From a virus: a stretch of DNA of 44,286 nucleotides. The stretch covers positions 1 to 44,286 of IMG/VR virus record IMGVR_UViG_3300037264_000664. One strand, given 5' to 3'. The notes beneath the pieces were generated by a model. That model made no database searches, had not been told where the DNA came from, and worked only from the letters and a program-made list of their open reading frames with translations. Position 1 is the first letter of the stretch; each line of letters begins with the position of its first letter. Shown piece after piece: positions 2 to 31,451 of the stretch. The position numbers and the translations under genes were made by a program.

Positions 2-1771
2 TACAACCGGGGCGGTGCGGTAGGCCCGTCGGCCATCTATCCCGGCTCTGGCCAGAGCTTCACGATGCCGCGGCCACTCCCGCCAAACACGATCGAGATG
101 CCACCCATGACGCCGAAGTCCACGGCGTTGACGGTGCCGGGCGCCGCGCCCGCCGCGCCGACGGGGCGGCTCGGGCTGCCAGCGCCAACGGCGCCGCTAG
201 CCCTGCCAGCGCCGACTCCGCTTGCGCAAGTGGACCTGAGTGCACCTCCGGGGCGGACTGCGATGGCGCGCGCGCCCGGCCCGCCGCGCGTCCCTGGCCA
301 ACTCGGCCCGCGCAGTTTTGCCGTCGATCCCACCACGGTGTCAGGCATCGGAGACATTCCGCAGGCCCGGGGTCGGCTTGCGCGCGCCGCCATCAGGGTG
401 GCCCAGGCCGGGCCGGCAATCGCCGGGACCGTCGCAAATGCGGCGGCGGACAAATTGTTGGCGCCGTCGCCCGGTGCGGCTGCGCCAGGCACTGGCGTAC
501 CACAGGGGATTCCGGGCATCGGCGACATGCAGCCCGTGCCAGCGCAGGCGCCCAGTTTCTTCCGCGACACGGAGGTCGGCCGCAACGTCGGGAACATCAT
601 CAACGCGATTCCCGGCGCCCGCCCGATCGCGGGCCCGCTATTCCGCGCTGGCTCGATGGCCCAGCGGGCAACCGCCGTCGGCGGCGAGATGGTGCGCGCC
701 GCGGCGTCGTCAAACGCCCTGGACGCGCCGCCTCAATTCCCCCAGCCGGCGCCGCAAAGCGTTGGCGCGCCGCTGCCCACGCCACAACAGATCGAGGGCT
801 TCGTCGCGCCGGGCGACATCGGCGCCGGTGCCGGCCGCGGGCTCGTCAATCCGCCCAACGTGCAGCCGGGCGGCGTGGTGACGCGCAACGGCAATGCGTT
901 CTCTGGCCAGAACATCGGCGAAGGGTTCGTCTACGCAGACGGCAGCAGGAGCCCGAATCAGATCGGCGTGGCGCCAGGCGGCGGAACTGGCGGCACGCCG
1001 TCGGTGGACGCAGCACTCGCGGCGGCGCGCAGCGCAGCGGCGGATCGCGGGGATTTCGGGGCTCTCGGCTTGCCGGGTGGTTCGGCGCCCGGCCTGTCTG
1101 GTGGCGGAGTCTCGGGGATCGACCTGGGAAGCGTCCCGGAAGGCGCGCGGCGCACCGGCCACGTGACCGCGCTCAATGCCGACCAGTTCGACCGCGACCG
1201 GGCTGCCTACCTGACTGAGCAGGCTCTGCGCCTGGGAGGCAAGGCGGGGCCGGCGCAGGCCAGGGCTATCACTGAGGCGGCTGCGGCACAAGGTGCCGAA
1301 CGCAGCGCGCGCCTGCGCGACACAACGGGCCTCGCCATTGCGAAAGGACAAACCGCCGCACAGGCAGCGACTGCAGGCGCTCAAGACCGCACCACGCGTC
1401 GCGGCCAGGACATCGGCGCAATGACGCATGCGAGCTCCGATAAGCGGGCGTTGGACGTGGCAAACATCCAGGCCGGCGCGCACATCAAGGGTGCTCAACT
1501 CGGCTCGGACTCTCGCGTGACGGCCGTGGAGGCGCGTGCGCAGCGCTACCAGCACGTTCCTGGCGGTCAGGAAGTGCAGGACATCGGCGGCCTTCCCCAG
1601 CTTGTCAAGCGCCCGGATCGGATGTTCGACAGTCACACGGGGCAGTTCCTGGACGCCTCGCCTGCCCAGGCAGGCCTGACAGACACACCCGAGAGGTTGG
1701 CCATCAAGAATGACCAGAAACTGACGCGGGATCAGAAGATTGCCAAGCTGAAAGCACTGGACGCAAAGTGA
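2..1771 (+). CDS. Partial virion-associated protein, Pro/Ala/Gly-rich, 5' end cut by window edge
   Basis: The reading frame is open from base 2 with no stop before base 65, where the first ATG lies, so the true start probably lies outside the window. The visible part is 589 residues ending at TGA 1769-1771. The first ~350 residues are rich in Pro, Ala and Gly. The last ~200 are Ala/Gln/Arg-rich and probably helical, with a more ordinary soluble tail after 'RYQHVPGG'. I recognise no catalytic motif. The stop overlaps the GTG start of the giant polyvalent gene (GTGA), so the two are translationally coupled. Position and composition suggest a structural or ejected internal protein. This function is inference; only the frame and coupling are seen. 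Confidence 0.75.
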   Translation, partial: YNRGGAVGPSAIYPGSGQSFTMPRPLPPNTIEMPPMTPKSTALTVPGAAPAAPTGRLGLPAPTAPLALPAPTPLAQVDLSAPPGRTAMARAPGPPRVPGQLGPRSFAVDPTTVSGIGDIPQARGRLARAAIRVAQAGPAIAGTVANAAADKLLAPSPGAAAPGTGVPQGIPGIGDMQPVPAQAPSFFRDTEVGRNVGNIINAIPGARPIAGPLFRAGSMAQRATAVGGEMVRAAASSNALDAPPQFPQPAPQSVGAPLPTPQQIEGFVAPGDIGAGAGRGLVNPPNVQPGGVVTRNGNAFSGQNIGEGFVYADGSRSPNQIGVAPGGGTGGTPSVDAALAAARSAAADRGDFGALGLPGGSAPGLSGGGVSGIDLGSVPEGARRTGHVTALNADQFDRDRAAYLTEQALRLGGKAGPAQARAITEAAAAQGAERSARLRDTTGLAIAKGQTAAQAATAGAQDRTTRRGQDIGAMTHASSDKRALDVANIQAGAHIKGAQLGSDSRVTAVEARAQRYQHVPGGQEVQDIGGLPQLVKRPDRMFDSHTGQFLDASPAQAGLTDTPERLAIKNDQKLTRDQKIAKLKALDAK

Positions 1772-4700
1772 GCCAGTACGAGGACTACCTCGATCAGCCT
1801 GATCGCGTCGATCCATACGGCGCGTATCTGGACCTTGGCGCGCCGCCGCGCAAGGCGACCAAAGCCGGCGCGGGTGTCGTGCGCACGCTGGCTGACCAGG
1901 CCCTATCTCTCGGGCAGGGTGTTGTCGGTGGCGTCAAAGCACTGGTCGACATCGGTGGAACCGGGACGGCCGCCAGCCGTGGACTCGGCACCCTAAACCA
2001 GGGTATCGAAGGCCTCTACTCACCGACGCGCACCGCTGAGAAGCAGGCACGCCAAGCGACGATTGAGGAAGCGGACACGTCCGGCGGGACGTTGGATCAG
2101 GTCACTTCCCGCCTTGGCGGCTTCGCGGAAGCTCCGGCCCAGACACTTCTGCAAGGCATCGGCTCGATGGCGCCTACGGTGGCCGCCGCCGTGCTGAGCA
2201 AGGGGCGCACGCTTGCCGCGTTGCCGGTCGGCGCGGCGATGGGGGTTGGCGGGATCAAGGGCCAGAACTACGATGCGGTGAAGGCCGAGGCAACCAAGCA
2301 GGGCCTGGGCGAAGCGCAGGCCGAGCAATTGGCCAGCCGAGCGTCCGAGTACAACTTGAGCAACGCTCCCCAGCAAGCGCTTGGCGGCGCGCTCGGTGCG
2401 CTGGATGCTGGATTCGGCGTGGAGAGGTTGCTTAGCAATATAGTCCGCGGCACTGTGAGCCCGGCGAGTCGGCTGAAACGCGTCGGAATCGGAGCGATCG
2501 AAGAAGCGATCCCGGAGGGGCTGCAAGGATCACAAGGCCGGTACGCCCAGAATCTGGCGTTGACCGAGGCGGGCTTCCCGACCGACCTGATGAGCGGCGT
2601 TGTCGGGTCTGGCGTTCACGATGCGGCGGTCGGTGCAGCGCTTGGCGCCGGGGCTGGGCTTCCTGGGCGGCGCGCATTGGCTGCGCAGCAGAGCCCCGAG
2701 TCCATACCGCAGCCCATACCGTCACCCGGCGACCCGATTCGAGCCGGCAGTCTCCCGGCGGCCGGTCCGCTGACCAACGCCGTCAATATCGGGATCGAGG
2801 GCGAGGCGCAAGCGGCCGACGTCGGCGTCCCGACAGAGGCTCCGATTGCCGCGGGGCTTGCCGGGGTGCCGAGTACGGATGCGCCGCATCCGGACACCAA
2901 AAAACCACGGGGCGGGAAAGCCGCGCCCGGCCCACTCGAAGCGGTCGCGCCAGAAGGCGGCACCGAAAAGCCGACCTTCGACCCGACCACGGGCGAGATC
3001 ACGCCGCCGCAGCGCGCCAGTTGGCCGACCCGAGAGGCCGTCGATCAATACCTGACCCAGCAGCGCGTCAGTGGCGGCGCGAAGACGGGGAAGGCCGCGC
3101 CGGTTGAACTCAAAGGCGGCGGGTTCAGTTTCCTGCGCGAGGGCGAGCCCGGGTACGAGGAAGCGGCAGCAGCCAAACCGCTGCCCAAGCTCGCTCAGGG
3201 AAAGCCGAAATCTGCCAAGCAGACGAAATTGCAGGAGCGCCGCGCGAAGGCCGAGGAGAAAAAGGCGGCGAAGGCGGCGAAGGCGAGTAGTGTGCCAATC
3301 CAGCCGGAAACCGCGCCGGAAACCCCAACTACTCCCGCGCCGACGGTCGACGAGGCCGCGCATGTAGCTGCAACCTCGACGCAAAACGAGTTGCCGCAAC
3401 CAACTCAGGCCCAGAAGGAGGCCGGCAACTACCAGAAGGGCCACGTCGCGGTAGGCGGCCTGGACATCAGCATCGAGAACCCGCAGGGCTCGACCCGCAG
3501 CGGCACCGATCGCTCGGGCAAGGCCTGGACGGTCAAGATGGCCCACCACTATGGCTACATCCTGGGCACTGTAGGCGCGGACAAGGACCACATCGACACG
3601 TTCATCAAGCCGGGCACCGCCGAGGACTACGCCGGGCCAGCTTTCGTCGTCGACCAGGTCCACCCTGAAACTGGCAAGTTCGACGAGCACAAGATCATGC
3701 TCGGGTTCCCCAGCGCGCTGGAAGCCCGGCGCGCCTACGCCAAGAACTACGCGAAGGGCTGGAAGGGGCTCAAGAGCATCACCCCGGCGAGCCTCGACGA
3801 ATTGAAGGCATGGCTGGCTGGCGGACACACGAAGACGGCGTTCTCCACCCGACCGACCCCGATCGAGCAACAAGTCACCGCACATGGGGCGCCAGGCACC
3901 CCAATTGGGGTGAAAACAGAGGGTGTCCCCACTGCCCCCACTGTCCCCGCGCCGACGCAGAAAGCGCCCGCTGGGTTGCCCGCGGGTTCGATGGCCGCAC
4001 CGGCGGACGACGTTGTGCGAAATCTGCGCAAGTTGTCACACGACACCGAGGCGCCAGGCGACGTCATGCTCGGAAACGACAAGTTCGTGAGCATGGACGA
4101 GGCAATTGCCGCAGCTCGAGCAGCGATGACCCCGCGCGAGCATGGCATGCCATTCCAGTTCATGCGCGTGCTGGACATCTCCGGTCGTGACTTGAAGCGG
4201 ATCGTTGCCGCAATGAAGGAAGGAGCACCCAATGCCGAAGCAGTACGAAGCGATGAGGAACAAGTTCGCCCAGGGGGCACCGAAGGACAGCCCAGCGTAC
4301 AACCAGGCCCAGAGCAAGGCGGCGGCGATCTACAACAGCCGCCACCCGAAGCAGCCGGTGACCGGGGCGTCGGAGCCGAAGGCCCGAAAGAAGAAGTAGC
4401 CCCGAAGACGCTGCGCGAGCGCCGCCGTGCGGCGGTTGCGGAGGCCGCCCAGAAGCGCGCGGATCAAGAAGCCGCCGCCGGTGGCAATCCGCATGTCTGG
4501 TCAGGGCGCGCCGCCCGCAAAGCTGGGCACTCTCGCACTCCACCACCTGAAATCACGGGCCGAAGACACATCAAGATGTGGCTTGAGGGATGGGATGCCG
4601 CGGGCCCTGCGGAAGCCCCAGTAGCCAAGGCGGAAGATACCCAGGGAGCCGGAGCTACCGGAGAGAAGACGCTTGCCGATCTGGTGAAAGCGATCGACAA

Positions 4701-7700
4701 GAAGTTGCCAAAGCCCGAAAAGAAGCAAACCGACCTACAGCGGCGCCGGGCCGAATCGAAAGCGAAGAAGGGCCAGGGCGCCGCGGAAACCGGGCGCATC
4801 TTGGGCGAGAACAGCGACGGCAACAACGTCCTCGAAGACCCCAGCGGCGTGCGGTCCTACGTCACCAAGGAAGGCGTGCGCGTTGAAGAAACTGTAGCGC
4901 TCACACCGACCCGGCAAGGCATCGTGACTTCCCCCGTCAAGCCGCGCGCCGCCGAGTTCAAGACGGCGGAAGAAATCAGCGCTGAACTTGCCCCCCCGAC
5001 GACGACTCCAACGAAAGAGGCACCCGATGATTCCGCCACTCCAATCCCTGCGCCGCCGGTCGATCAGCCGATGGTTGAGCGAGCAGCCGGCAATGGCGAA
5101 GCTCCCTTCCGCGGAGCTATCCTCGAAAGTGGAATCCCTGGACCAGCAGATGATGGAGGTCTTCGAGGAGGAGGAGGACCAATTGAGGGACTCAATGATG
5201 CGGGCGGGAACCTGGGGAACGGGCGCGGGGATGGGCTCCTTCCCAATGGACCGCCTGACAATCTGGGAGACCGTCAGAAACGAGTATCTCCCGACCTTGA
5301 CTACCGACCAGGAATCGGAGACCTGACGCGCACGGGTTCGTGGTTCGAGACGGCCGGCCGCAACGTCGACATCATCGAACTGGCAATCAAGATCGACGCG
5401 GAGAAGCGCGCCGCGACGCCCGAAGAACAGGCCCAGCTGGCAAAGTACGTCGGTTTCGGGGCAGGGGAAATCGCCAACGCCCTGTTCCCTGTCCCTTCGG
5501 AATGGGCGCGCAAGCAGGAACCGGCCCGCCTGATCTGGCCCGATCTTGTCGCGCAGCGCGAGAAGCGCTGGGGGCCCCTGGCTGAGCGGCTCGCGGCCCT
5601 GCCGGTCGAATGGCAGAAGTCGATCCTGCAGTCCACCCAGTATGCCCACTACACCAGCGAAAACATGGTGCGGTCCATCTGGGCGGCAGTAGGGCGTCTA
5701 GGGTTCACTGGCGGCAAGATGTTCGAGCCTGGCGGTGGCATCGGCACGTTCCCGATGCTGATGCCCGAGAGCATTCGCAAGGACTCGAAGTACACAGCGA
5801 TCGAGTTTGACGGACCCACTGCATTGATCTCCAGGCTGCTGACGCCTGGCCAGAACATGCTGCATGACGACTTCATCAAGCGCAAGGTGCCGCGCAACTA
5901 CTTCGACTTGGGCATCGGCAATCCGCCGTTCTCGCAGACTCCGATTCTTGGTGACCCGGACTACGCCAAGTTCGGGTTCATGCTGCACGACTTCTTCTTT
6001 GCCAAGACGATCGACCGCGTGCGCCCGGGTGGCCTGCAGGTATTCGTCACCAGCAAGGGGACGATGGACAAGCAGAACGCCAAGGCGCGCAAATACCTCG
6101 CCGCCCGGGCCGACCTGTTGGGCGCCATCCGTTTGCCGTCCACCGCTTTCCAAGGCAACGCCGGCACGAGCGTCGTCACAGACGTCCTATTCCTGCGCAA
6201 GCGCGCGGAGGGAGAGGCGCCGGCCGGCGAGGCGTGGCAAGACCTCAAGAGCGTTGACACGCCCGATGGCCCGGTGCTCATCAATGAATACTTTGCGAAG
6301 AACCCGCACATGGTTCTGGGGCAAAACCGCATCAGCGGCAACACCGACGACAAAGGGCGGCGCATCAACAGCAACGGCCGCGGCGGAGAGAAGTACACCG
6401 TGGTCAGCTACGACGAGACTCCGGCCCAGCTCGACGCGAAATTCGCGAAGGCCGTTGAAAGCCTGCCGCAGAACGTCTATTCGACGATGACCGCCAGCGC
6501 AGAGACGCTGCGCCAGCAAACCGCCAAGATCGAATTCGATCCGAAGATCAAGCGCGAAGGCGTGATCTACGTCGCTGCTGATGGCACCCTGATGCGCGTG
6601 GAGAACGGCGCCGGCCGGTCGCTGGCTACGATGGTGCGCCTGTCGGCCAAAGACACGGCCTGGCTCAAGGGCTACGTGGGGATTCGCGACGCTGTGCAAT
6701 TGGCGCGTGCAGCGCAGGTCGCCGATGGCGACTGGCAGGCCGCACTGAAGACACTGAACAAGGTCTACGACAAGTTTCTCAAGGACCACGGGCCGATCAA
6801 CGCGTTCCGCATTCAGGTCTACAAGCGCACCGACGAAGAAGGCAACGAGACTGAGGTTCCAAGGCGCGTCCTCACGAACCGCCGCTTGTTTCGCGAAGAC
6901 TACGACCAGGCGCTCGTCACGCAGATTGAGCAGATCACTGACGATGACAAGATCATCAAGGCGAAATTCCTGCGCGAGCGCACGATCGGCAAGCCCCTCG
7001 TGCGCGAGGTCAAAACAGTAGGCGACGCCCTCGCTGTGTCGCTCGATGAGCTGGGCCGCTTCGACCCGAAGGACGTGGCCAAGCGAATCAACTTGACTCA
7101 GGAAGAAGCGCTGGATGCCTTGGGCGCCGGGGTCTACAAGACGCCACAAGGCGAGTGGCAACTGGCCGACGAGTACCTGTCGGGCGATGTCGTTGCAAAG
7201 TTGGCAGAAGCGCAGCACGCGGCGCGTGATGACGCCTCGCTTGAGCGCAACGTCGCAGCACTGAAAGAGGCCCAGCCGGAGAAACTCGGGCCGTCGCAGA
7301 TCAGCCCGAAACTCGGCGCCTCATGGGTCGCTGCCGAGTTCGTCAGCGAATTCGCGAAAGAGATTGAAGCCGGCCATGTGACATTCGACGTCAAGACCGA
7401 AAGTTGGCAGGTGACGGGTAGCGACAAGCGCTCTGAGCGTCGGGCGGGCGCGGACTACGGCAGCGCCGATCGGTCGTCGTCTGAGTTGCTCGAAGCCATG
7501 TTGAACAGCCGCGACATCGTGGTCAAGTACGGCAGGAGCGCCGGTGAGGATCTCGCCGGCAAGGTCAACCCCACCGCCACCACCGCAGCAAACGAGGCCG
7601 CGAGCAAGATTCGCGAGAAGTTCCGTTCATGGGTATGGACCGACTCCGAGCGCGCGGTGACGCTGGTTGAAACCTACAACGAACGGTTCAACAACCTGGC

Positions 7701-10700
7701 GGGCCGCAAGTTCGACGGCAGCCACATGACATTGCCTGGCTTGCGTCAAGGCTTCGTGCCACACGCGCACCAGCTGCGCGCGATCTGGCGACAGATTCAG
7801 ACTGGGAACACCTATCTGGCGCACGCAGTGGGCGCAGGAAAGACGTTCGAGATGATCGCCGGTGGCATGGAACAGCGCCGCCTGGGCCTCATCAGCAAAC
7901 CGATGTACGTGGTGCCGAACCACATGCTCGAACAGTTCTCGAACGAATTCCTTGAGTTCTACCCGCTGGCGAACATCATGGTCGCCGACGACGAGAATTT
8001 CCACACCGACCGGCGCCGGGCATTCATCGCCGCAGCGACTCTCAACGCGCCCGACGCCATCATCATCACCCACAGCGCGTTCGAGCGCATCGGCGTGAAG
8101 GCCGAGAGCGTTGACCCAATCCGGGATCAAGTCATCGGTGATCTGCAAGCGGAACTGGACGACTCGGACAGTTCGGATCGCGTTCGGCGCAAAAACCTGG
8201 AACAGCAGATCGAGGCGGTGAATCAGCGCTTCGATCGCATCCTGGCGGCGGGGGGCAAGGACTCGACGATCAAGTTCGAGGACATGGGCGTCGACTTCGT
8301 CTATGTCGATGAGGCGCACGACTACCGCAAACTCGATTTCGCGACGAATCAATCGGTCAAAGGCGTCGATCCCAAGGGCTCAAGGCGAGCCATGGACATG
8401 TACGTCAAGACGCGATACCTGGAGAAGAAGTCGCCGGGTCGGTCGATGGTGTTTGCCACTGGTACGCCGGTGACGAACACGATGGGCGAGCTCTACACGA
8501 TCATGAAGTTCTTCGCGCCGGAAACACTGTCGCGCGACGACATCAGCACGTTCGATGCGTGGGCGCGCATGTTCGGCGAAGTCGTGACGGACCTCGAGAG
8601 CAATGTCGCGGGCAGGTATGAACCCGTGACGCGGTTTGCCAAATTCGACAACGTGGTGGAGTTGATGACCCGCGTCCGGCAGTTCATGGACGTGTTGACC
8701 TCCGATAGCCTGGGCGCACTTGTCAAAAGGCCAGACGTCGCTGGGGGCGGGCCACACATGATCGTCGTCGAGCCGACTTCGCAATTGCGCGACTACATGC
8801 GAACCGTGCTTGCGCCGCGGGTCGAGACATCAAGGAAATGGAAGCCCTCTCCGGATCAGCCGAACAACCCTGATCCGATGCTGAACATCATCACCGATGG
8901 GCGCTTTGCGGGGCTCGATCCGCGCTTCTTCGGTGCCAAGTTGGACCCCGGCACCGTGACGCCGCTGACGAAACTGGGCGAGACGATCATCGACGAGTAC
9001 AAGGCAAGCGCGGACAACCCATATGCCGACGCAGCCGGAAAGGTCGAAGCCCTCAAGGGCGGCACGCAGATCGTGTTCTACAACCTCGGGTTTGGCGCGC
9101 AGTCGATGGCGAACCGTGGCTTCAACGCAAGGCTGGCGCTGAACAAGCAACTCACGGCCGGAGGCGTCAAGCGCGAGCACATCGCATGGTTCGACGAGGC
9201 CAAGACCGACGCTGCGAAGGAGGCCTTATTCAAGGCCATGCGCGCGGGGCAGATTCGGGTGCTGATCGGGTCTGCCAAGAAAATGGGGACCGGGGTGAAC
9301 GTGCAGAAGCGGCTGACTGCGCTGCAATACCTCGATCCGCCGTGGTTTCCGGCCGATGTCGAACAGCCGCACGGGCGCATCTTGCGCCAGGGCAATCAGA
9401 ACGATGTCGTGCGTATCAACTGGTTCGCGGCGAAGGGCAGTTACGCTGAAGCGATGTGGCAAATGGTCGCGCGCAAACAGCGTTTCATCGACCAGGCATT
9501 CCGTGGCGACAAGACCATGCGCTCGATGGAGGACATGGACGAAGCGAGCCAATACGCGCAGGCCTCGGCACTGTCCAGCGATGACCCGCGCGCGATGCAG
9601 TTGGCGGGACTGCGCCAGGACGTCACGCGCTACGAAAACTTGCAGCGCGCGCATGCGAGCGAACAGATCGCCGTCAAGGACGCCATTCGCCAGGCGACAT
9701 ATAAGGCAGAAAACCACGCCAAGCGGTTGGCGGTTTTCGAGAAGGCATTCAAGGCGATCGGCGGGGAGCACATCTACTTCGAGTCCGGCAATGTCAACGG
9801 CAAGGAGTACGCCAAGTCGAAGGAATTCGGCCAGGCGCTCAAGGATCGGTTCAACCAACTCATCGCCGATGCAGTCCTGAGCCCGTACCAGGAGAAGCGC
9901 CCGCTTGGTTCGATTGGGTCGGTTGAACTGTGGATTCGACATCTAACCTTCTACGACACGGGCCTGAAGGCCCAGGTGCCTGGATCCACGTTCCAGCTGA
10001 TGGCAACGGTCGGCGGTCTGGACCTGGACGTGATGACCACCGAGGGGATGGGCAGCGACATCGACGATCAGGGTTTGACGAGACGTGTCCTCAACTCCGC
10101 AAATTCACTCAGTGGCTCCGTGGACCACGAACGCGACGGGTTGAAGGAGCAGCAAACCGAACTGACGCGCCTGAAGAAGAAATTCGGCGCCCCCTTCGAG
10201 CACGCGCACCAGATGGCCGAGAAGTACGGCGACTTGAAACGGCTCGAGGCGGAACTCGAAGCGGAAGGAAAGGCCAAGCCCGCGGCGCCGGCCGCGGCCG
10301 TCGAGCCGGAAGGCTCCACCAATCTGCGCCAGACCGGCGCGCCCGAGGCGAACACCACCGACACCGTGCAGTTCTCGGTTGTATCGGCTCGCGCATTCAG
10401 CAAACCAAAGCCCATCGGGGCCGACTCAGGAGTGAATTTCAACCGTGAAAAAGCCGTTGCAAACCTACCCGCTTCCGTGCGAGACGATCCATTCTTCGGG
10501 CCTGAAAAAACCGCGATGCGGAACGTTCACGCCCGCACCGCGCTATGGGACAAGCTCCAAGCGTTTGGCAAGGAACAGGGACTCCCGCCATACACCCTTG
10601 GTGTTGACAGCATCGGCAACATCACGGTCGGAAAGCCCGCCCCCCAAATCGCGCTGAAGCTGCTTGCGGAGTTCGCCGACGCGAACGACACAGGGGTCTA

Positions 10701-13700
10701 CGTTCTTGCACAGTCCGCGCAACAAAGCGTCGAGAAAATCTCGGCCTATCGCCCGATTGGGTATGAGCCGACGACGGGCCTCGGCCTATACGGGCAGAGC
10801 CGCGGATCGGGCGGGACATCCGATGGATTGGGTTTTGCTACGTTCGCCTACAAGCCGCGCGGCATTTCTGAGTTCATGTTCGCTGTCGGGGATGCCCCAG
10901 TATCCGAACGCGGCCCAACGGCGCAGAATATCGCCAATGCACCCGCCAGCCTCGCCGATCGAAACGCCACCGCCAAGCTCCAAGCCAGCATCAATACCGT
11001 CTGGCCTGATTTTGTGCTGGACCCTATTTCTGCGCGAGCTGCAGGCAAGGGCAGAGACGCCCTCTCCGAGCTCATCAAGCGAGTCTTCACCACCCGCCGA
11101 GTAGTCTGGTTCCAGGCGAATCACCTGTTCGCCGATGGGGTTCACGACCAGAAGCAGCGCGACGTTATCTTCCTGAACGTGCGTTCGCAGCGCCCGCACC
11201 TGGCGGCGGCCGGGCACGAGATGCTGCACGCCCTGAGCCTCGAGCAGCCGGCGCTGTATGCGCAACTGCGCACGCGCATCCTGGCCCTTGGCAAAGACCT
11301 CGACCTGCGCCACGCGCGGCTACAGGGAACCCGCATCAAGGTACTGGGCGAAGACGGCCGCATGACGCTTGCCGGGCTCGAGGAAGAATTCATTGCCGAT
11401 GTCGTGGGCGATAACTTCATGGACCCGAAGTTCTGGCAGATGCTGGCCAAGGATCAGCCCTCGGGCTTCCAGGCGGTGCTGAAAGCGATCCTGAATTGGA
11501 TCGATGACGTTCTCTCGAAGATACGCGCCCAGACCCCCTTCGGCACGAACGAATTCCTGACCGACATGGTCGCGGCGCGCAAGGCGGTTGCGGAGACGAT
11601 CCGCGCATTCGCCCCGGCGATCGACGAGGGACTGTCTGGCGCGGACATCAATCTGAGCGTTGCCGCCCAGGCACCGCCGTTCTACAGCGCGCTTGCGCGT
11701 CAGGTCGAGAAGTCTGCAATGAAGCAGGGCGACGCCGCGGCGTGGAAGCAGGCCATCAAAGGGATGGTCAACAGTGGTGTCGTGAAGGCGGACGAAGTTC
11801 AATGGACCGGCATGGACGAGTGGCTCGACCTGCAGCAAGGCAAGATCACGCGCCAGGCGGTAGGCGACTTCCTCAACGCCAACGGCGTGCAGGTAACGGA
11901 GACGGTGCTGGGCGATGGCGCGCCGACGCCGCTGAAGTGGGGGAAAGAAAGCGCGGAAGACGAAAACGACGAGTCGTTCATGGAGAGCGCCGACGGGTAT
12001 CGCATCGTGCGCGCCGCTGATGGCGCCCTAAGCATCTACACCCCGGACGGCGACCAAATTCACGGCGATATCTTCGGCGACGAACGTGCGAAGGAGTTGG
12101 CAGCAGCAGACGCGGCGGGCGATGACGGAGCGACCGTCACCAAGTACGGCCAGTACCAACTCCCCGGCGGACCGCTTTCCCGCGACACCGAAATCCTCTC
12201 GCGCGAGGGTTGGCTGCGCATGGACGAGGTTCAGGTCGGCGACATCGTGATGACGCGCCGCGACGATGACGGCGCGCTCGAATGGCAAGAGGTCGAGGCC
12301 GTGCCGACCGTGTTCGCGGACAAGCTCTACCACTTCAAGAACCAGTCGATCGACATGCGCGTCACGGCTTGCCACAACATGCTTGTCAAGCGACGCCGCC
12401 GCAGCTCGGGCGGGCTGTTCCGCGCCAAGGCGGCCGACCTGTGGACGATGGCGGAATGCGTTGCGCCGCTGGTTGGCGAGTGGGCCGATGGCGCCGCGGC
12501 GCCGCTGTACGGGTACGCAGCCCAAGATGCGGCAGAACTGATCGGCTGGTACATCGCCGAAGGCTCTGCCGTGACCGAAGACGGCAAAAAGTCCACGCTT
12601 GCAATCTCTCAAAGCCGCGAGGCAAACCCGGCCAAGTGCGACCAGATCGAGGCGCTGCTTGGCCGGATGGGCGTCGCCTGGAACTACGTCGAAAGCGGCC
12701 CGGCCTACTACCTGTCGATCAAGTCGATGGATCGCGGACTGGTGGCGTTGCTTCACGCGCAAGGGAAGTCGCACGACAAGTACATCCCCGGCTTCATGTT
12801 TGAGCAGCCGCGCAGCGTCATCGTGGCGCTGATGGATGGGCTGCTGCTTGGCGACGGCAATCTTGCGTGCAAGGACAGCCCGACGCGCGAGCCGCGCTGG
12901 GCCTATCACACGATGAGCAAGCAACTCGCCGACGACATGCAGGCATTGGCGCTGCTGTCTGGCGTGCGCGGCACCATCAGCCAGCGGCCGACCGGGCTGT
13001 ACGAGGTCAGGCTCAACTCAAAGCAGTGGGCCAGCATCGACGACGCGAAACACGCCATCGTTGACTACAACGACACCGCCTACTGCGTGACCGTGCAGAA
13101 CCATGCGATCTACGTTCGCACGGGTGGCGTCGCCGCGTTCACTGGAAACAGTAACTACCGCGAGGTGCTGTTGACGCTGCCGCGTGGCGTGGTCAACAAA
13201 CTCGACGACGCGGAGATCGCGGCCGAGGGCACCAACCCAACTAGCGGTAAGCCGTATGTCCGCTTCAACTGGCATGGGCAAACCTACGTTGTTGAGCGCG
13301 AGGCGGGCGAGTCGTCACGAGACGCAATGCTCCGGCGCATCAACAGTGACCGCGAGGGGCGTGGCGCGGGCGAAGTAAGGCCGCAATCTGAGTTCCGCTC
13401 CAACCACTGGGACCAGCCCAACGTCCTCGCCCACATCCGCCTGAACGACCGCACCGACGCCGACGGCAAGCGCGTGCTGTTCGTCGAGGAGATCCAGAGC
13501 GACTGGGGGCAGGCGGGGAAGAAGAAGGGCTTTGCCACTGGTGGCAGCCCGGCGCGCGACGCATTCAAGGCGTTCGAGGCCGACGTGCGCAAGCGCTTCC
13601 GCGAACAGGTCATCGGCGAGGCTACAGAACTGAAACCAGAGCGCCGCGAAGCCTGGGCCGACACGATCGTCAACAACTCGACTATCGGCGACATGGCTCG

Positions 13701-16700
13701 CGCGGTTGGCGAAGGCGAGAGGGCGCGCGAACTGCAACGCGCCGAGATGGAAGAAGAATCGGCGGCCGGCAAGACGGTTCCAGCCGCCCCCTTCGTCGGC
13801 AAGACCGACGCCTGGGTCAGCCTGGCCATCAAGCGCGTCATCAAGATCGCAGTCGATGGCGGGTATGACCGCGTGGCTTTCGTGAACGGTGACCAATCTG
13901 CGCTGCGCTACAAGGAAGCGCTGATGAAGGCGGTGGATACCATTGCGATCAAGCGCAACGATGGCGGCACATACACGCTTGATGCCTTCAAGGATGGGGC
14001 GGCCGTGCATGAAGAAACGCACATCGGCGCCGAGAAGGTGCGCGAACTGCTTGGAAAGGCCGGCGACGACATCATCGCCAAAGCCGACTCTGGCGTGGGC
14101 GCTGATGCCGGCGGCTACGTCACCATCAAGACCGGCGACATGGACATCGGAGGCGCGGGCATGCGCGCCTTCTACGACAAGATCGTCCCCAACGTCGCCA
14201 AGGAAGTGCTGCGCAAGGTGGGTGGCGGGCAGATGAAAACGGTTGACCTTTCATCGCCCGCGCTGGCCGAGACGCGCCGCAGGATGGGTGTGGCCACTGT
14301 CGACGCAAAGCAACAACCGGGATTCGACATCACCCCCGCCATGCGCGAGAAGGCCGCAGGCGGGCTGCCGATGTTCAGCGTGGCCAGCAACATCGAAGCC
14401 GGCCTCAACCGCGCGCGCGACATCAATCTGCCCCTGCGCTACAAGCTGGGCGACCTGTTCAACGACAACGGGCGCCTGAACTGGTGGCACAAGACTGTGG
14501 GCACGATGCACAACCTGGCGCAGCGCAGCCCGGCGTTCCGGCGGGTCTACGACACGACCCAGAACTTCCTGAATGACGTCAGCTACTACGCCACCGAGGC
14601 GAGCAGCTTGGCGCCGACGATCCTGCCGAAGCTCGAAACCTGGAAAGACATCGGCAGGACGCCCCTGTCCGCTGCGGACACCAAGGCGCTCGCCGGCCCT
14701 GTGTTCGAGGGCACCTTGATGTGGACGCGCGACGCGAATGGCACCCCCGTCCCTCAGCCCGACGTTCAAAAGGCGGGCATCGTTTGGACCGACGCCGAGT
14801 TGCGGTCGAGATTCCAGATGACGCCCAAGCAGATCGACCTCTACCGCCAGTTCCGCGCCACGATCGACAAGAGCCTCGAGAACCTCGCGATCAGCGACAT
14901 GCTGCGCTACGGCGGCGCGGACGTTGCCAAGGTGCGCCAGCAGGCCCTCGATGCGGGAAGCGTGGACGCTGCGGCGATGGTGCTGCACGACCACCTGGTG
15001 GAGTCGGCGGCAGAGGATGAGGACCGGGCGCCGCTCCTGCTGAGTACCGCAAAAGCCATCATGGACAAGGCCGAGCGCGCGAACGACTTGATGGCGCGCG
15101 GCTATGCGCCGCTTTCACGGTTTGGGCAGTACACACTGGATGTGGTCGACGGCGCTGGCGAGCGCGTCTATTTCGGGCTGTTCGAGACGGCCAGGGAGCG
15201 CTCGCGCAAGGCCCGAGAGATGCGGGCGGACAATCCCCGGGCGAGGATCACCCAAGGCACGGTTTCGGAGGAAGCGTACCGGCTATTCGCTGGCGTCACC
15301 CCGGAAACGCTGGAATTGTTCGGCGGCATGCTGGGCCTCGAAAGTCAGGGCAGCAACGCGGCGAGCCAGGCTTTCCAGGAGTACCTCAAGATCGCGCGCA
15401 GCAACCGCAGCGCATTGAAGCGCCTGATCGAACGCAAGGGCGTTGCCGGGTTCTCTGAGGACGCCGGGCGCGTGCTCGCGGGCTTCGTGTATTCAAACGC
15501 GCGCCAGACCAGCAGCAATCTGCACATGGGCGAGTTGACCGAGTCCATCGAGGCGATTCCGCAGGGCGCGGGCCAGTTGAAGGATCGGGCCGTCGCGCTG
15601 GCAGAGTACGTGAAAAACCCGACGGAGGAAGCGCAAGGATTGCGCGGCTTGTTGTTCGCGCAGTTCCTGGGCGGGTCAGTTGCCGCAGCGATGGTCAACA
15701 TGCTGCAGCCCGTGCAGGTCACGCTGCCCTATCTCAGCCAGTTCGGCGGGATTGCGAAGGCCGCGCGCCAGATGCTCGCCGCCGTGAAGGACGCAAACAA
15801 GCGCCTGACGGGCGATGCCGCGCTGGACGCTGCGCTGCACAAGGCGGCGGAAGAAGGCATCGTGTCGCCGCAGGAGGTCCACCAGCTGATGGCCCAGGCG
15901 ATGGGCCGCGGCGCGCAGCGTTCCGGCGACGGGACGCTGATGGGCAATCTGTCAGCCAGGGGCATGAACTACACCGCCAAGCTGCTGTTCGGGTGGGGCA
16001 AGGTATTCGGGGTGGCGGAACAATTCAACCGGCGCGTGACGTTCATTGCGGCCTACCGGACCGCGGCGGAGCAGGGGCGCAGCGACCCCGCTGGATTCGC
16101 CTCGCGCGCGGTGGCGGAAACCCAGTTCACCTACAACAAGGGCAACAAGCCGGCTTGGGCGCGCGGCGCCGTCGGCTCGACCCTGTTCACGTTCAAGCAA
16201 TACTCGATCAGCTACCTCGAGCTCCTGCACCGCATGTGGACCCAAGGCGGGGCCGATGGCAAGCGCGCGACCCTGCTGGCTCTGGGAATCCTGTTCCTGA
16301 TGTCCGGCGCCGGTGGCCTGCCGGGCTCCGACGATCTGGACGACCTGATCGACGGGTTCATGCAGAGCGTCATGGGCCTGAACTTTTCGAGCAAGCGCGC
16401 CAAGCGTGAATTCTTCGCGGAAACGCTGGGGCTTGGGGCCGATGGCTCGCGCTTCCTTGAGCACGGGCTGTCGGGTCTGCCCGGCTCGCCGATTGATGTC
16501 TCGGGACGCCTGGGGCTGGGCAACCTGATCCCCGGCACGGGCCTGCTGACGCGCAAGGCGGACCACACGGCGGACGTTGCCGAGATTGCCGGGCCGGCCG
16601 GAGATGTAATCAAGCGCACTTTCCAGGCCGGCGGCAAACTTCTCACCGGCGACGTGAAGGAAGCGCTCGGCCTGATTTCGCCGATCGCCGTGCAGAACCT

Positions 16701-17130
16701 CATCAAAGCCAATGACATGGCCACCACCGGCATGTATCGCGACAAGTCCGGGAAGAAGATTCTGGACGTCGATGGTTACGACGCGGCAATGAAGGCGATC
16801 GGCTTCCAGCCGGTCGACGTGGCGCGCGTCCAGGAGGCCAGCAGGACCGCGGCGCAAATGATCGGGTTGAACCGCATGCGGGAGACGGAAATTGCCGATC
16901 GGTGGGCGCGGGCGATCTTCGAGAAGAAGCCGGAGGACATCGCGGCTGCGCGCGACTCGTTGCGGGATTGGAACGTCGACAACCCGCAGTCGCCCATTCG
17001 GATCGTGCCCAACCAGATCAAGACCCGCGTCGAAGCTATGACGGTGGATCGCGCGACCCGGCTGCAAAAGACCGCCCCGAAGGAAATCCGGGCCCAGGTC
17101 CATCGTGAATTGCAGTTGAACCAGCGGTGA
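1768..17130 (+). CDS. Giant polyvalent protein: methyltransferase-helicase-metalloprotease with intein, 5120 aa
   Basis: One uninterrupted 5120-residue frame, GTG start overlapping the previous stop. Domains in order: hydrophobic Ala/Gly-rich N-terminus (~30-310); pyrophosphatase-like polyvalent domain (~570-692, InPase family); short Rmf/CrpP-like segment (~906-944, ends MWLEGWD); N6-adenine methyltransferase with EPGGGIG (1320-1326) and NPPF (1385-1388); SNF2-type helicase with AVGAGKT (2020-2026), DEAH (2181-2184) and GRILRQGN (from 2536); zinc metalloprotease HEMLH (3150-3154); intein (3469-3794); conserved FVEEIQSDW region; LPD38-like C-terminus (~4700-4900, FKQYS motif) with one hydrophobic segment near 4835. 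The family is known from phages and plasmids; methyltransferase-helicase fusions resemble P1 DarB, which protects injected DNA from restriction. I infer a virion-packaged, co-injected protein. No lytic transglycosylase motif was recognised. The linkers at 4232-4399 and 5027-5326 look out of frame (see nested genes). Confidence 0.93.
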   Translation: MSQYEDYLDQPDRVDPYGAYLDLGAPPRKATKAGAGVVRTLADQALSLGQGVVGGVKALVDIGGTGTAASRGLGTLNQGIEGLYSPTRTAEKQARQATIEEADTSGGTLDQVTSRLGGFAEAPAQTLLQGIGSMAPTVAAAVLSKGRTLAALPVGAAMGVGGIKGQNYDAVKAEATKQGLGEAQAEQLASRASEYNLSNAPQQALGGALGALDAGFGVERLLSNIVRGTVSPASRLKRVGIGAIEEAIPEGLQGSQGRYAQNLALTEAGFPTDLMSGVVGSGVHDAAVGAALGAGAGLPGRRALAAQQSPESIPQPIPSPGDPIRAGSLPAAGPLTNAVNIGIEGEAQAADVGVPTEAPIAAGLAGVPSTDAPHPDTKKPRGGKAAPGPLEAVAPEGGTEKPTFDPTTGEITPPQRASWPTREAVDQYLTQQRVSGGAKTGKAAPVELKGGGFSFLREGEPGYEEAAAAKPLPKLAQGKPKSAKQTKLQERRAKAEEKKAAKAAKASSVPIQPETAPETPTTPAPTVDEAAHVAATSTQNELPQPTQAQKEAGNYQKGHVAVGGLDISIENPQGSTRSGTDRSGKAWTVKMAHHYGYILGTVGADKDHIDTFIKPGTAEDYAGPAFVVDQVHPETGKFDEHKIMLGFPSALEARRAYAKNYAKGWKGLKSITPASLDELKAWLAGGHTKTAFSTRPTPIEQQVTAHGAPGTPIGVKTEGVPTAPTVPAPTQKAPAGLPAGSMAAPADDVVRNLRKLSHDTEAPGDVMLGNDKFVSMDEAIAAARAAMTPREHGMPFQFMRVLDISGRDLKRIVAAMKEGAPNAEAVRSDEEQVRPGGTEGQPSVQPGPEQGGGDLQQPPPEAAGDRGVGAEGPKEEVAPKTLRERRRAAVAEAAQKRADQEAAAGGNPHVWSGRAARKAGHSRTPPPEITGRRHIKMWLEGWDAAGPAEAPVAKAEDTQGAGATGEKTLADLVKAIDKKLPKPEKKQTDLQRRRAESKAKKGQGAAETGRILGENSDGNNVLEDPSGVRSYVTKEGVRVEETVALTPTRQGIVTSPVKPRAAEFKTAEEISAELAPPTTTPTKEAPDDSATPIPAPPVDQPMVERAAGNGEAPFRGAILESGIPGPADDGGLRGGGGPIEGLNDAGGNLGNGRGDGLLPNGPPDNLGDRQKRVSPDLDYRPGIGDLTRTGSWFETAGRNVDIIELAIKIDAEKRAATPEEQAQLAKYVGFGAGEIANALFPVPSEWARKQEPARLIWPDLVAQREKRWGPLAERLAALPVEWQKSILQSTQYAHYTSENMVRSIWAAVGRLGFTGGKMFEPGGGIGTFPMLMPESIRKDSKYTAIEFDGPTALISRLLTPGQNMLHDDFIKRKVPRNYFDLGIGNPPFSQTPILGDPDYAKFGFMLHDFFFAKTIDRVRPGGLQVFVTSKGTMDKQNAKARKYLAARADLLGAIRLPSTAFQGNAGTSVVTDVLFLRKRAEGEAPAGEAWQDLKSVDTPDGPVLINEYFAKNPHMVLGQNRISGNTDDKGRRINSNGRGGEKYTVVSYDETPAQLDAKFAKAVESLPQNVYSTMTASAETLRQQTAKIEFDPKIKREGVIYVAADGTLMRVENGAGRSLATMVRLSAKDTAWLKGYVGIRDAVQLARAAQVADGDWQAALKTLNKVYDKFLKDHGPINAFRIQVYKRTDEEGNETEVPRRVLTNRRLFREDYDQALVTQIEQITDDDKIIKAKFLRERTIGKPLVREVKTVGDALAVSLDELGRFDPKDVAKRINLTQEEALDALGAGVYKTPQGEWQLADEYLSGDVVAKLAEAQHAARDDASLERNVAALKEAQPEKLGPSQISPKLGASWVAAEFVSEFAKEIEAGHVTFDVKTESWQVTGSDKRSERRAGADYGSADRSSSELLEAMLNSRDIVVKYGRSAGEDLAGKVNPTATTAANEAASKIREKFRSWVWTDSERAVTLVETYNERFNNLAGRKFDGSHMTLPGLRQGFVPHAHQLRAIWRQIQTGNTYLAHAVGAGKTFEMIAGGMEQRRLGLISKPMYVVPNHMLEQFSNEFLEFYPLANIMVADDENFHTDRRRAFIAAATLNAPDAIIITHSAFERIGVKAESVDPIRDQVIGDLQAELDDSDSSDRVRRKNLEQQIEAVNQRFDRILAAGGKDSTIKFEDMGVDFVYVDEAHDYRKLDFATNQSVKGVDPKGSRRAMDMYVKTRYLEKKSPGRSMVFATGTPVTNTMGELYTIMKFFAPETLSRDDISTFDAWARMFGEVVTDLESNVAGRYEPVTRFAKFDNVVELMTRVRQFMDVLTSDSLGALVKRPDVAGGGPHMIVVEPTSQLRDYMRTVLAPRVETSRKWKPSPDQPNNPDPMLNIITDGRFAGLDPRFFGAKLDPGTVTPLTKLGETIIDEYKASADNPYADAAGKVEALKGGTQIVFYNLGFGAQSMANRGFNARLALNKQLTAGGVKREHIAWFDEAKTDAAKEALFKAMRAGQIRVLIGSAKKMGTGVNVQKRLTALQYLDPPWFPADVEQPHGRILRQGNQNDVVRINWFAAKGSYAEAMWQMVARKQRFIDQAFRGDKTMRSMEDMDEASQYAQASALSSDDPRAMQLAGLRQDVTRYENLQRAHASEQIAVKDAIRQATYKAENHAKRLAVFEKAFKAIGGEHIYFESGNVNGKEYAKSKEFGQALKDRFNQLIADAVLSPYQEKRPLGSIGSVELWIRHLTFYDTGLKAQVPGSTFQLMATVGGLDLDVMTTEGMGSDIDDQGLTRRVLNSANSLSGSVDHERDGLKEQQTELTRLKKKFGAPFEHAHQMAEKYGDLKRLEAELEAEGKAKPAAPAAAVEPEGSTNLRQTGAPEANTTDTVQFSVVSARAFSKPKPIGADSGVNFNREKAVANLPASVRDDPFFGPEKTAMRNVHARTALWDKLQAFGKEQGLPPYTLGVDSIGNITVGKPAPQIALKLLAEFADANDTGVYVLAQSAQQSVEKISAYRPIGYEPTTGLGLYGQSRGSGGTSDGLGFATFAYKPRGISEFMFAVGDAPVSERGPTAQNIANAPASLADRNATAKLQASINTVWPDFVLDPISARAAGKGRDALSELIKRVFTTRRVVWFQANHLFADGVHDQKQRDVIFLNVRSQRPHLAAAGHEMLHALSLEQPALYAQLRTRILALGKDLDLRHARLQGTRIKVLGEDGRMTLAGLEEEFIADVVGDNFMDPKFWQMLAKDQPSGFQAVLKAILNWIDDVLSKIRAQTPFGTNEFLTDMVAARKAVAETIRAFAPAIDEGLSGADINLSVAAQAPPFYSALARQVEKSAMKQGDAAAWKQAIKGMVNSGVVKADEVQWTGMDEWLDLQQGKITRQAVGDFLNANGVQVTETVLGDGAPTPLKWGKESAEDENDESFMESADGYRIVRAADGALSIYTPDGDQIHGDIFGDERAKELAAADAAGDDGATVTKYGQYQLPGGPLSRDTEILSREGWLRMDEVQVGDIVMTRRDDDGALEWQEVEAVPTVFADKLYHFKNQSIDMRVTACHNMLVKRRRRSSGGLFRAKAADLWTMAECVAPLVGEWADGAAAPLYGYAAQDAAELIGWYIAEGSAVTEDGKKSTLAISQSREANPAKCDQIEALLGRMGVAWNYVESGPAYYLSIKSMDRGLVALLHAQGKSHDKYIPGFMFEQPRSVIVALMDGLLLGDGNLACKDSPTREPRWAYHTMSKQLADDMQALALLSGVRGTISQRPTGLYEVRLNSKQWASIDDAKHAIVDYNDTAYCVTVQNHAIYVRTGGVAAFTGNSNYREVLLTLPRGVVNKLDDAEIAAEGTNPTSGKPYVRFNWHGQTYVVEREAGESSRDAMLRRINSDREGRGAGEVRPQSEFRSNHWDQPNVLAHIRLNDRTDADGKRVLFVEEIQSDWGQAGKKKGFATGGSPARDAFKAFEADVRKRFREQVIGEATELKPERREAWADTIVNNSTIGDMARAVGEGERARELQRAEMEEESAAGKTVPAAPFVGKTDAWVSLAIKRVIKIAVDGGYDRVAFVNGDQSALRYKEALMKAVDTIAIKRNDGGTYTLDAFKDGAAVHEETHIGAEKVRELLGKAGDDIIAKADSGVGADAGGYVTIKTGDMDIGGAGMRAFYDKIVPNVAKEVLRKVGGGQMKTVDLSSPALAETRRRMGVATVDAKQQPGFDITPAMREKAAGGLPMFSVASNIEAGLNRARDINLPLRYKLGDLFNDNGRLNWWHKTVGTMHNLAQRSPAFRRVYDTTQNFLNDVSYYATEASSLAPTILPKLETWKDIGRTPLSAADTKALAGPVFEGTLMWTRDANGTPVPQPDVQKAGIVWTDAELRSRFQMTPKQIDLYRQFRATIDKSLENLAISDMLRYGGADVAKVRQQALDAGSVDAAAMVLHDHLVESAAEDEDRAPLLLSTAKAIMDKAERANDLMARGYAPLSRFGQYTLDVVDGAGERVYFGLFETARERSRKAREMRADNPRARITQGTVSEEAYRLFAGVTPETLELFGGMLGLESQGSNAASQAFQEYLKIARSNRSALKRLIERKGVAGFSEDAGRVLAGFVYSNARQTSSNLHMGELTESIEAIPQGAGQLKDRAVALAEYVKNPTEEAQGLRGLLFAQFLGGSVAAAMVNMLQPVQVTLPYLSQFGGIAKAARQMLAAVKDANKRLTGDAALDAALHKAAEEGIVSPQEVHQLMAQAMGRGAQRSGDGTLMGNLSARGMNYTAKLLFGWGKVFGVAEQFNRRVTFIAAYRTAAEQGRSDPAGFASRAVAETQFTYNKGNKPAWARGAVGSTLFTFKQYSISYLELLHRMWTQGGADGKRATLLALGILFLMSGAGGLPGSDDLDDLIDGFMQSVMGLNFSSKRAKREFFAETLGLGADGSRFLEHGLSGLPGSPIDVSGRLGLGNLIPGTGLLTRKADHTADVAEIAGPAGDVIKRTFQAGGKLLTGDVKEALGLISPIAVQNLIKANDMATTGMYRDKSGKKILDVDGYDAAMKAIGFQPVDVARVQEASRTAAQMIGLNRMRETEIADRWARAIFEKKPEDIAAARDSLRDWNVDNPQSPIRIVPNQIKTRVEAMTVDRATRLQKTAPKEIRAQVHRELQLNQR
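4232..4399 (+). CDS. Overprinted small basic protein inside the polyvalent gene
   Basis: A 55-residue frame, shifted +1 against the polyvalent gene, from ATG 4232 to TAG 4397-4399. A very strong ribosome-binding site (AAGGAAGGAG) sits just upstream. The product starts MPKQYEAMRNKF, contains AAAIYNSRHP and ends in a basic tail, KARKKK. Small phage and plasmid proteins of this look are common and have no assigned function. Of its 55 codons 51 end in G or C, whereas the polyvalent frame over the same bases has only about half G/C at third positions and reads as a Gly/Pro/Gln-rich linker. That points to this frame as the constrained one. Expression has not been shown. Confidence 0.7.
   Translation: MPKQYEAMRNKFAQGAPKDSPAYNQAQSKAAAIYNSRHPKQPVTGASEPKARKKK
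5027..5326 (+). CDS. Overprinted 99-aa protein inside the polyvalent gene
   Basis: A 99-residue frame, +1 relative to the polyvalent gene, from ATG 5027 to TGA 5326, with AAAGAGG six bases upstream of the start. The product is well mixed in composition: a basic N-terminus, an acidic helical stretch (MMEVFEEEEDQLRDSMM), then FPMDRLTIWETVRNEYLP. About 80 of 99 codons end in G/C, against about 47 percent for the polyvalent frame over the same bases, which there encodes a Gly/Pro/Asn-rich linker directly ahead of the methyltransferase domain. I do not recognise the family. It may be an independent gene whose DNA was read through when the giant gene was assembled. Confidence 0.68.
   Translation: MIPPLQSLRRRSISRWLSEQPAMAKLPSAELSSKVESLDQQMMEVFEEEEDQLRDSMMRAGTWGTGAGMGSFPMDRLTIWETVRNEYLPTLTTDQESET
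12172..13149 (+). mobile_element. In-frame intein with LAGLIDADG homing endonuclease, class 3-like
   Basis: 326 residues (polyvalent residues 3469-3794) interrupt a continuous extein motif: YQLPGG upstream and SNYREVLLTLP downstream. The N-terminal splicing block reads PLSRDTEILSREGW, an intein block A but with Pro at position 1 instead of Cys or Ser. Block B is TACH (Thr3533, His3536). The two LAGLIDADG helices are LIGWYIAEG (3591-3599) and LMDGLLLGDG (3688-3697). Block F is YCVTVQNH with Cys3773 at the position usually Asp. The C-terminus is FTGN, with Thr two residues before the terminal Asn, and Ser is the +1 residue. Cys in block F plus Thr in block G without a position-1 nucleophile is the class 3 pattern known from the mycobacteriophage Bethlehem DnaB intein. 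The usual block B Trp appears to be Met3538. Confidence 0.9.
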
Positions 17131-29539: not shown

Positions 29540-29709
29540 TGGCCAAACGAATGATCACCACCACCGTCCGCACCAACGCGCAGCTGCGCAAGATGCATCT
29601 GAGTTACTACACACTGTGCAAATTGGCCGATGCGCTGCATTGCGTAGACCCGCAAGAGTGCCTCGAACATCGTTTGACCCACCCAGCGTGGCAGCCAGGA
29701 TCACCATGA
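29539..29709 (+). CDS. 56-aa basic protein
   Basis: ATG 29539 overlaps the preceding stop; the product starts MAKRMITTTVRTNAQLRK. It is basic, with two cysteines near the middle and a Pro/Trp-containing end. The stop overlaps the ATG of the Rha-type gene. No family recognised. Confidence 0.6.
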   Translation: MAKRMITTTVRTNAQLRKMHLSYYTLCKLADALHCVDPQECLEHRLTHPAWQPGSP

Positions 29710-30731
29710 ACGGAAACATTCCAGAAAACACCCCCGCGGTTCCGGCCGTCCACCCGCTGACGATGACCAGCCTCGAGATTGCGGAATTGGTCGAAGTTCG
29801 GCACGACAGCGTGAGGCGAAGCATCGAAACGATCGCGGAAAGGGGCGCGATCAAACTCCCACAAATTGTGGAAGTTTCCGGCGATGGCACCCGGGGCCCG
29901 AGGTCAGTGCGCGTTTACATCCTCGGCGAGCGCGATACCCTGGTTGTGGTCGCGCAGCTGTCCCCTGAATTCACCGGGCGCGTGATCGATCGCTGGCGGT
30001 GGCTCGAGGCCCAATTCGCCAAGCCGGCGCCGGTGGCCGTCGACATGAACAACCCGAAAGTGCTTCGGGCGATGCTCATGGCCTACGCCGACAACGTGGA
30101 GAAGCTGGAAGCCGACAAGGAGACCCTGCAGGTCGACAAAGGCAAGGTCGAGAAGCACTGCGATTTCCTCTTGGGTGTCCAGAGCGGCCTGGTGAAGCGC
30201 ATCGACGAGAAGATCACCGAGGTCCACGAACTGAAACACACGGTCGACGTGATGGCGCCCCAGGTGAAGGCCCTGCGCCGCATCGCCCTCGAGCCGGCCG
30301 ACGACGCCCCGGTATCCCTGCGTGCCGCGGCCAAGAACTGCAGCGTGCCGCCGAAGTGGCTCGTGGACTGGATGCTCGAGCACAAATGGCTGTACCGCGG
30401 CGCTGGCGAGCCGCCCGGTGACTTGATCCCGTACCAACCCAAGATCACCGCCGGCTACCTCGAAATGAAACTCGTCGAGCAGGTGCGAACCAGCAAGACG
30501 AATTCCACCGTCCAGGTGGTGCGGCAGTTCCTGCAGCCCGTGGTGACCCAGAAGGGCCGCGTCCGCCTGTCATACGAGCTGGAGTGCCTCAAGAAGCAGG
30601 GGGTAGACGTGCCGAACACGTCAATCCACACCCCCAAACCCCGCAAACCGGCCACCAAGCCCCGCAAACCCCCCGGCCGAGGCATGAATCCCGACGCGCC
30701 CAACGGCCTCGCGTGGGCGGATAGGCCATGA
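29706..30731 (+). CDS. Rha/KilAC-type antirepressor, 341 aa
   Basis: ATG 29706 overlaps the previous stop. The N-terminal ~95 residues (MTSLEIAELVEVRHDSVRRSI...FTGRVIDRWRWLE) match phage regulatory proteins of the Rha type. A coiled-coil stretch (~115-190) follows, then a KilA-C/ANT-type C-terminal domain (VSLRAAAKNCSVPPKWLVDWML...). The Pro/Lys-rich tail (PRKPATKPRKPPGRG) may bind DNA. Such proteins inactivate or compete with repressors, which fits the nearby Cro-like gene and a temperate or formerly temperate lifestyle. Confidence 0.85.
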   Translation: MNGNIPENTPAVPAVHPLTMTSLEIAELVEVRHDSVRRSIETIAERGAIKLPQIVEVSGDGTRGPRSVRVYILGERDTLVVVAQLSPEFTGRVIDRWRWLEAQFAKPAPVAVDMNNPKVLRAMLMAYADNVEKLEADKETLQVDKGKVEKHCDFLLGVQSGLVKRIDEKITEVHELKHTVDVMAPQVKALRRIALEPADDAPVSLRAAAKNCSVPPKWLVDWMLEHKWLYRGAGEPPGDLIPYQPKITAGYLEMKLVEQVRTSKTNSTVQVVRQFLQPVVTQKGRVRLSYELECLKKQGVDVPNTSIHTPKPRKPATKPRKPPGRGMNPDAPNGLAWADRP

Positions 30732-31181: not shown

Positions 31182-31451
31182 ATGTCAAACGTAGTCAAAC
31201 GATGGAAGGTGCTGGACTGGCCGGCCCGCCCCGCCTCCACGCGGCCCCTGATGCTATGCTGCCCGCGGTGCCAGACCGACCAGCAGCTCGAGGTCGGTCA
31301 CACACCTGGCGGCGTCATCATCGCGGCAATGGCGCTGACGATCGTCTTCGACCCACCGAACTACAAACCCAGAGACAATTTCATGCCTGAGTCGATTCAG
31401 TGCCGCAATTGCCGAAAGATATTCTCCTCGGAGGTAACCCATGTTCGGTAA
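31182..31451 (+). CDS. Zinc-ribbon protein, 89 aa
   Basis: ATG 31182 gives MSNVVKRWKVLDWP... with two CxxC pairs (CCPRC and CRNC) spaced as in a zinc ribbon. Its start has no strong Shine-Dalgarno. An extended -10-like sequence, TGTCATAAT (31164-31172), lies just upstream and could drive the replication genes. The last ten bases overlap the next gene start. Confidence 0.7.
   Translation: MSNVVKRWKVLDWPARPASTRPLMLCCPRCQTDQQLEVGHTPGGVIIAAMALTIVFDPPNYKPRDNFMPESIQCRNCRKIFSSEVTHVR

Follow-up and report, generated by a model that had tools for sequence, protein, structure and literature searches.

A Pro1 intein of class 3-like Met-Cys-Thr anatomy in a phage polyvalent protein and its probable relationship to class 1 inteins

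The window analyzed here, a stretch of 44,286 nucleotides (IMG/VR virus record IMGVR_UViG_3300037264_000664), is a tailed-phage record with genes for terminase, portal and structural proteins, and one of its genes, encoding a polyvalent protein, is interrupted by an intein that starts with proline. The residues and the predicted fold of this intein suggest that it is probably a cis-splicing LAGLIDADG homing element of a class 3-like type with a Met-Cys-Thr (MCT) triplet, derived from a class 1 intein with Cys at position F:4 and independent of the canonical class 3 clade, which carries a Trp-Cys-Thr (WCT) triplet.

The host gene (positions 1768 to 17130; this gene and the extein and intein features described below lie on the plus strand) forms a single open frame of 5120 amino acids through the insertion. 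Its product contains an inorganic pyrophosphatase-like domain, an SNF2-like helicase and DarB-like sections, together with a weak match to an Eco57I-like methylase. The intein extends over 326 residues, from Pro1 to Asn326 (12172 to 13149), as indicated by the sequence, the family alignment, the empty sites and the structural model. The N-extein ends in Gly-Gly (−2 and −1; 12166 to 12171), and Ser+1 of the C-extein occupies positions 13150 to 13152. Since 77 homologous intein-free loci read across the junction, mostly as PGG[S/E/T/K]NYRE, or as ..Y.LPGG[S/E/T/K/N]NYRE.. or near it, both borders are right and the insertion point falls precisely between the Gly and the Ser. The original prediction of a 326-residue intein within a polyvalent protein was thus accurate to the base.

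That prediction had also noted Pro1, a Cys in block F, a Thr in block G, Ser+1, an apparent Met in place of the block B Trp and two intact LAGLIDADG motifs, all of which could be located and found to be conserved in the family described below. Pro1 (12172 to 12174) leaves the intein without the Cys, Ser or Thr that class 1 inteins carry at position 1. Block B (T65-A-C-H68-N-M70, comprising B:7, B:10 and B:12; 12364 to 12381) has a class 1-like TxxH, with Met replacing the class 3 Trp. The two LAGLIDADG motifs (DAAELIGWYIAEGS, 12526 to 12567, and a second one ending in MDGLLLGDG, 12820 to 12858) include the invariant acidic residues E130 and D228, respectively, and the intein matches Pfam LAGLIDADG_3 with 33 bits (cutoff, 22.5), which together with the matching fold identifies a domain of the LAGLIDADG homing endonuclease type. 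Block F (YCVTVQNHAIYVR; 13081 to 13119) reads Y-C305-VTVQNHAIYVR and contains, at F:4, the presumed first nucleophile, Cys305 (codon at 13084 to 13086). Block G (AFTGN; 13135 to 13149) provides Thr324 (G:5; codon at 13141 to 13143), Gly325 and Asn326, the penultimate His being absent. The AlphaFold2 model of the intein (predicted local distance difference test score [pLDDT] of 92) aligned from end to end, in a fold comparison, with inteins that bear an endonuclease, among them TliVMA and PI-SceI.

Eight further full-length Pro1 inteins, 41 to 67% identical, came from viral contig scans and a single genome scan, in addition to three partial stretches of the same family (loci L002 to L004). P1, T65, H68, M70, the F:4 Cys, the G:5 Thr, Gly and Asn are invariant in all nine full-length members, each of which is followed by Ser+1. 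Since the catalytic residues are invariant in nine members down to 41% identity, the anatomy of the window intein is not due to chance. Seven of the nine (window, L044, L001, L018, L017, L019 and L029) occupy the same site in polyvalent proteins, and the others reside in portal-like hosts (L020/L027 and L028; SU10_portal, phrog_1216). The ratio of nonsynonymous to synonymous substitution rates (dN/dS) was 0.096 for window/L002, 0.07 for window/L004 and 0.14 for L002/L003, and it was about 0.1 in the splicing part and the endonuclease part alike; Pro1 inteins are under purifying selection. Given the invariant catalytic set, the presence in two unrelated host proteins and these dN/dS values, it is unlikely that the window intein is a decaying class 1 intein. 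L002 and L004 come from a 64.5-kb contig (G002), both ends of which fall inside the intein; the ends probably join, as in a circular or permuted assembly. A family-profile search of 398 plus 369 genomes (the phylum and class of L044) returned L044, which was already known, and beyond it nothing but partial or Cys1-type matches. Similarly, viral scans, one of them starting at residue 2, yielded no new close relative that starts with a residue other than Pro, only the more distant Cys1 inteins L221 and L222.

The best splicing-domain match of the family profile in the PDB was AceL NrdHF (6zgq; E value of 9e-5), a split intein experimentally proven to be class 3 with an MCT triplet (PMC7891396). 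In the fold comparison this chain gave a Z score of 21.7 (root mean square deviation of 1.9, with 150 of 154 residues aligned), whereas, among the matches listed, the other splicing-domain-only chains reached 17.1 at most, the class 3 inteins MsmDnaB and MchDnaB1 giving 15.4 and 15.1. AceL NrdHF has A1, S65, H68, M70, C124, T144 and N146, and its C terminus (FHALSVPGKSFVVTDEHGNRSVTGA|S, from a PDB chain carrying the crystal-construct changes C124A and N146A) ends in VTGN|S. Both inteins share the absence of a residue 1 nucleophile, H68, the complete MCT triplet with the F:4 Cys, a Thr-Gly-Asn (TGN) end and Ser+1, but AceL NrdHF is a split intein with Ala1 and Ser65 that carries no LAGLIDADG domain, whereas the window intein is a contiguous one with Pro1 and Thr65 that includes such a domain. 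In AceL NrdHF all activity is lost in C124A and C124S, and M70W kills activity while M70L is tolerated (PMC7891396); A1G is also inactive, so that residue 1 matters there.

Inteins with Cys1 that share the block F geometry turned out to be numerous. A genome harvest keyed to NHx[IL]Y[VI]R[RT][NHG]G, a block F pattern silent on residue 1 and G:5, gave 80 loci: L044, with Pro1, while all the others with a readable start held Cys1 inteins (74 extracted, plus L062 and L086). Among the 74, F:4 was either Cys (57) or Asp (17), and G:5 was Cys (49) or Ser (25) but in no case Thr. The 13 relatives from phages and other sources all carried Cys1 and the F:4 Cys, and 5 of them had the G:5 Thr. In L221 (2486 to 3583), a phage portal-like protein, a Cys1 intein combines Met at B:12, the F:4 Cys, the G:5 Thr, TGN and Ser+1, which possibly pictures the state that preceded the loss of Cys1; L222 is, like L221, a more distant relative. 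Two Cys1 inteins in portal proteins of the Gordonia phages Belphegor and Woes (L008, 1486 to 2481, and L035) even carry complete Trp-Cys-Thr at B:12, F:4 and G:5. Because Cys1 inteins carry them, neither the F:4 Cys nor the G:5 Thr, nor even the WCT set, is sufficient to call an intein class 3; the two residues that the original prediction took as class 3 marks are present, but they are not diagnostic. What sets the Pro1 family apart is the missing residue 1 nucleophile with all other features kept. The Cys1 inteins with the F:4 Cys (Corynebacterium phage P1201 ThyX, L125 NrdD, L221, and inteins of archaeal and candidate phyla radiation genomes) share with it the block F/G geometry YCVxVPNHxxYVRRNGxxxxGN, the LAGLIDADG domain and full-length similarity, and differ in having kept Cys1 (74 of 74, 13 of 13, L221 and L222). 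One of the harvested loci, a Desulfobacterales gene with a reductase-type extein as judged by eye (L062), holds two nearby inteins, the downstream one a mini-intein without an endonuclease domain.

Rooted trees of the Pro1 inteins and their Cys1 relatives, to which eight canonical class 3 inteins and, as outgroups, five inteins of class 1 were added, served to analyze the position of the family. Of the four outgroup sequences entered by hand (Npu DnaE, Mxe GyrA, gp41-1 and Mtu RecA), the first two were checked against PDB chains and gp41-1 was checked in part. In three rooted trees, all excluding residue 1 and two also excluding F:4 and G:5, the Pro1 inteins formed one clade with the Cys1/F:4-Cys relatives (supports of 99/97, 99/99 and 99/98), and class 3 grouped with gp41-1. 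A full-length tree agreed (support of 97 for Pro1 plus Cys1 relatives), and trees in which Pro1 was forced together with class 3 scored 6.7 to 48 log units lower. An origin of the Pro1 family apart from the canonical class 3 clade is thus favored by the trees, though not proven. A joint clade of AceL NrdHF and the Pro1 inteins was neither recovered in the tree nor rejected (P = 0.22); AceL NrdHF is a long branch. An early tree that had placed Pro1 and class 3 on one side had no class 1 outgroups; this was a rooting artifact, and the tree was replaced by the rooted ones. With respect to canonical class 3, we also observed that the Vibrio phage JSF3 TerL intein (L041) has Asn in place of the block B Trp, another departure from WCT, and that a gene labeled PhoH in Caudovirales GX15bay (L042) contains a class 3-type intein.

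A class 3-like mechanism is likely for the Pro1 inteins. In a first step, the Cys305 thiol would attack the Gly(−1) carbonyl, moving the N-extein to Cys305 and freeing the Pro1 nitrogen. His68, Thr65 and Thr324 would assist: by analogy to H68, T144 and S65 of AceL NrdHF, His68 may distort the scissile bond, Thr324 may hold His68 and Thr65 may support the oxyanion. With Pro1, the scissile bond is a tertiary amide, and we infer that this may help to strain it. The N-extein would then be transferred to Ser+1, cyclization of Asn326 without a penultimate His would release the intein, and an O-N shift would produce the Gly-Ser peptide bond. For its part, the LAGLIDADG domain would cut those copies of the polyvalent gene that lack the intein, at GG|SNYRE, thus spreading the element. 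As to origin, a class 1 intein already equipped with the F:4 Cys would later have lost Cys1, on a path separate from that of the classical WCT clade.

Several observations weigh against this interpretation. The class 3 Trp at B:12 is absent, with M70 in all nine members. The F:4 Cys proves nothing by its mere presence: the family has inherited it from its class 1 relatives, and there the first nucleophilic attack is presumably not its task. The forced clade of Pro1 and class 3 was not rejected by the approximately unbiased (AU) test (P values of 0.26, 0.056, 0.37 and 0.072), and whether the Pro1 family is nested in the Cys1 set or sister to it varied with the alignment and the run. The original prediction had seen a match to class 3 inteins, and we consider it unlikely that the window intein belongs to the canonical, monophyletic class 3 clade and that its block B Trp became Met and its penultimate His became Gly. 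Like the WCT inteins (MchDnaB1, MsmDnaB1 and mycobacteriophage TerL), which often bear LAGLIDADG domains, all nine Pro1 members combine the absence of Ser, Thr or Cys at residue 1 with the F:4 Cys (C305) and the G:5 Thr (T324), and some canonical members also start with Pro (L037). However, the Pro1 family forms a separate branch in the trees, together with the Cys1 relatives at 99%, and its TxxH block B and its NHxIYVRxxGxAxxTGN end, with Gly before Asn, resemble those of the Cys1 relatives, whereas class 3 mostly has DxxHxW and THN; moreover, the structures of canonical class 3 are not the nearest in fold. The class 3 assignment is supported as to mechanism, by the conserved residues and by AceL NrdHF as nearest structure, but finds no support as to lineage, since every rooted tree groups the family with class 1 relatives.

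With Cys1 absent and an F:4 Cys that is a class 1 inheritance, Ser+1 might instead attack the strained Gly-Pro bond directly, in a class 2-like manner and with Cys305 as a bystander. This appears improbable, because the G:5 Thr, a position taken by Cys or Ser in 74 of 74 genome relatives, is fixed together with an invariant F:4 Cys, as in class 3, and because the nearest structure, AceL NrdHF, requires its F:4 Cys (PMC7891396). We also regard as improbable a splicing-defective remnant that would only cleave or stay in the protein: class 1 inteins whose Cys1 is replaced by experiment no longer splice unless the change is conservative, and a class 3 pseudogene is on record (PMC3196547), but the catalytic residues and the open frame are kept in the eight further members, selection is similar in both parts of the intein, and one host of the family is a portal protein, a component that tailed phages cannot do without.

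Elsewhere in the window, genes for an anti-repressor Ant and a replication initiation-like protein (29616 to 30731 and 31441 to 32520) suggest a phage of temperate type. A nucleotide search of phages gave no match.

In the literature searched, neither a Pro1 MCT family nor the inteins of polyvalent proteins as a subject of their own were described, but such inteins may already figure in a published set, since the 1701 class 3 inteins defined there by the absence of Cys1 and the presence of the F:4 Cys include 6.1% without the Trp (PMC7891396). Monophyly has been cited for class 3, and polyphyly for those class 1 inteins that have the F:4 Cys (PMC3196547), and the failure of a WCT motif grafted onto a class 1 intein was read as class 3 hardly descending from class 1 (PMC7664689). 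We see a somewhat better than even chance that class 3 splicing arose at least twice, in this case by loss of Cys1 from Cys1/F:4-Cys inteins, L221 already having Met, Thr and TGN|S. If true, two origins of the mechanism would contradict the published view against direct descent from class 1 (PMC7664689), and the Pro1 family offers a test case for statements on the monophyly and descent of class 3 (PMC3196547, PMC7664689). A family that combines class 3-like residues with a class 1 scaffold, and whose Cys1 relatives differ at few active-site positions, would permit a test of which residues let Cys1 go, and intein engineering would gain contiguous class 3 splicers that start with Pro1 and have TGN|S ends.
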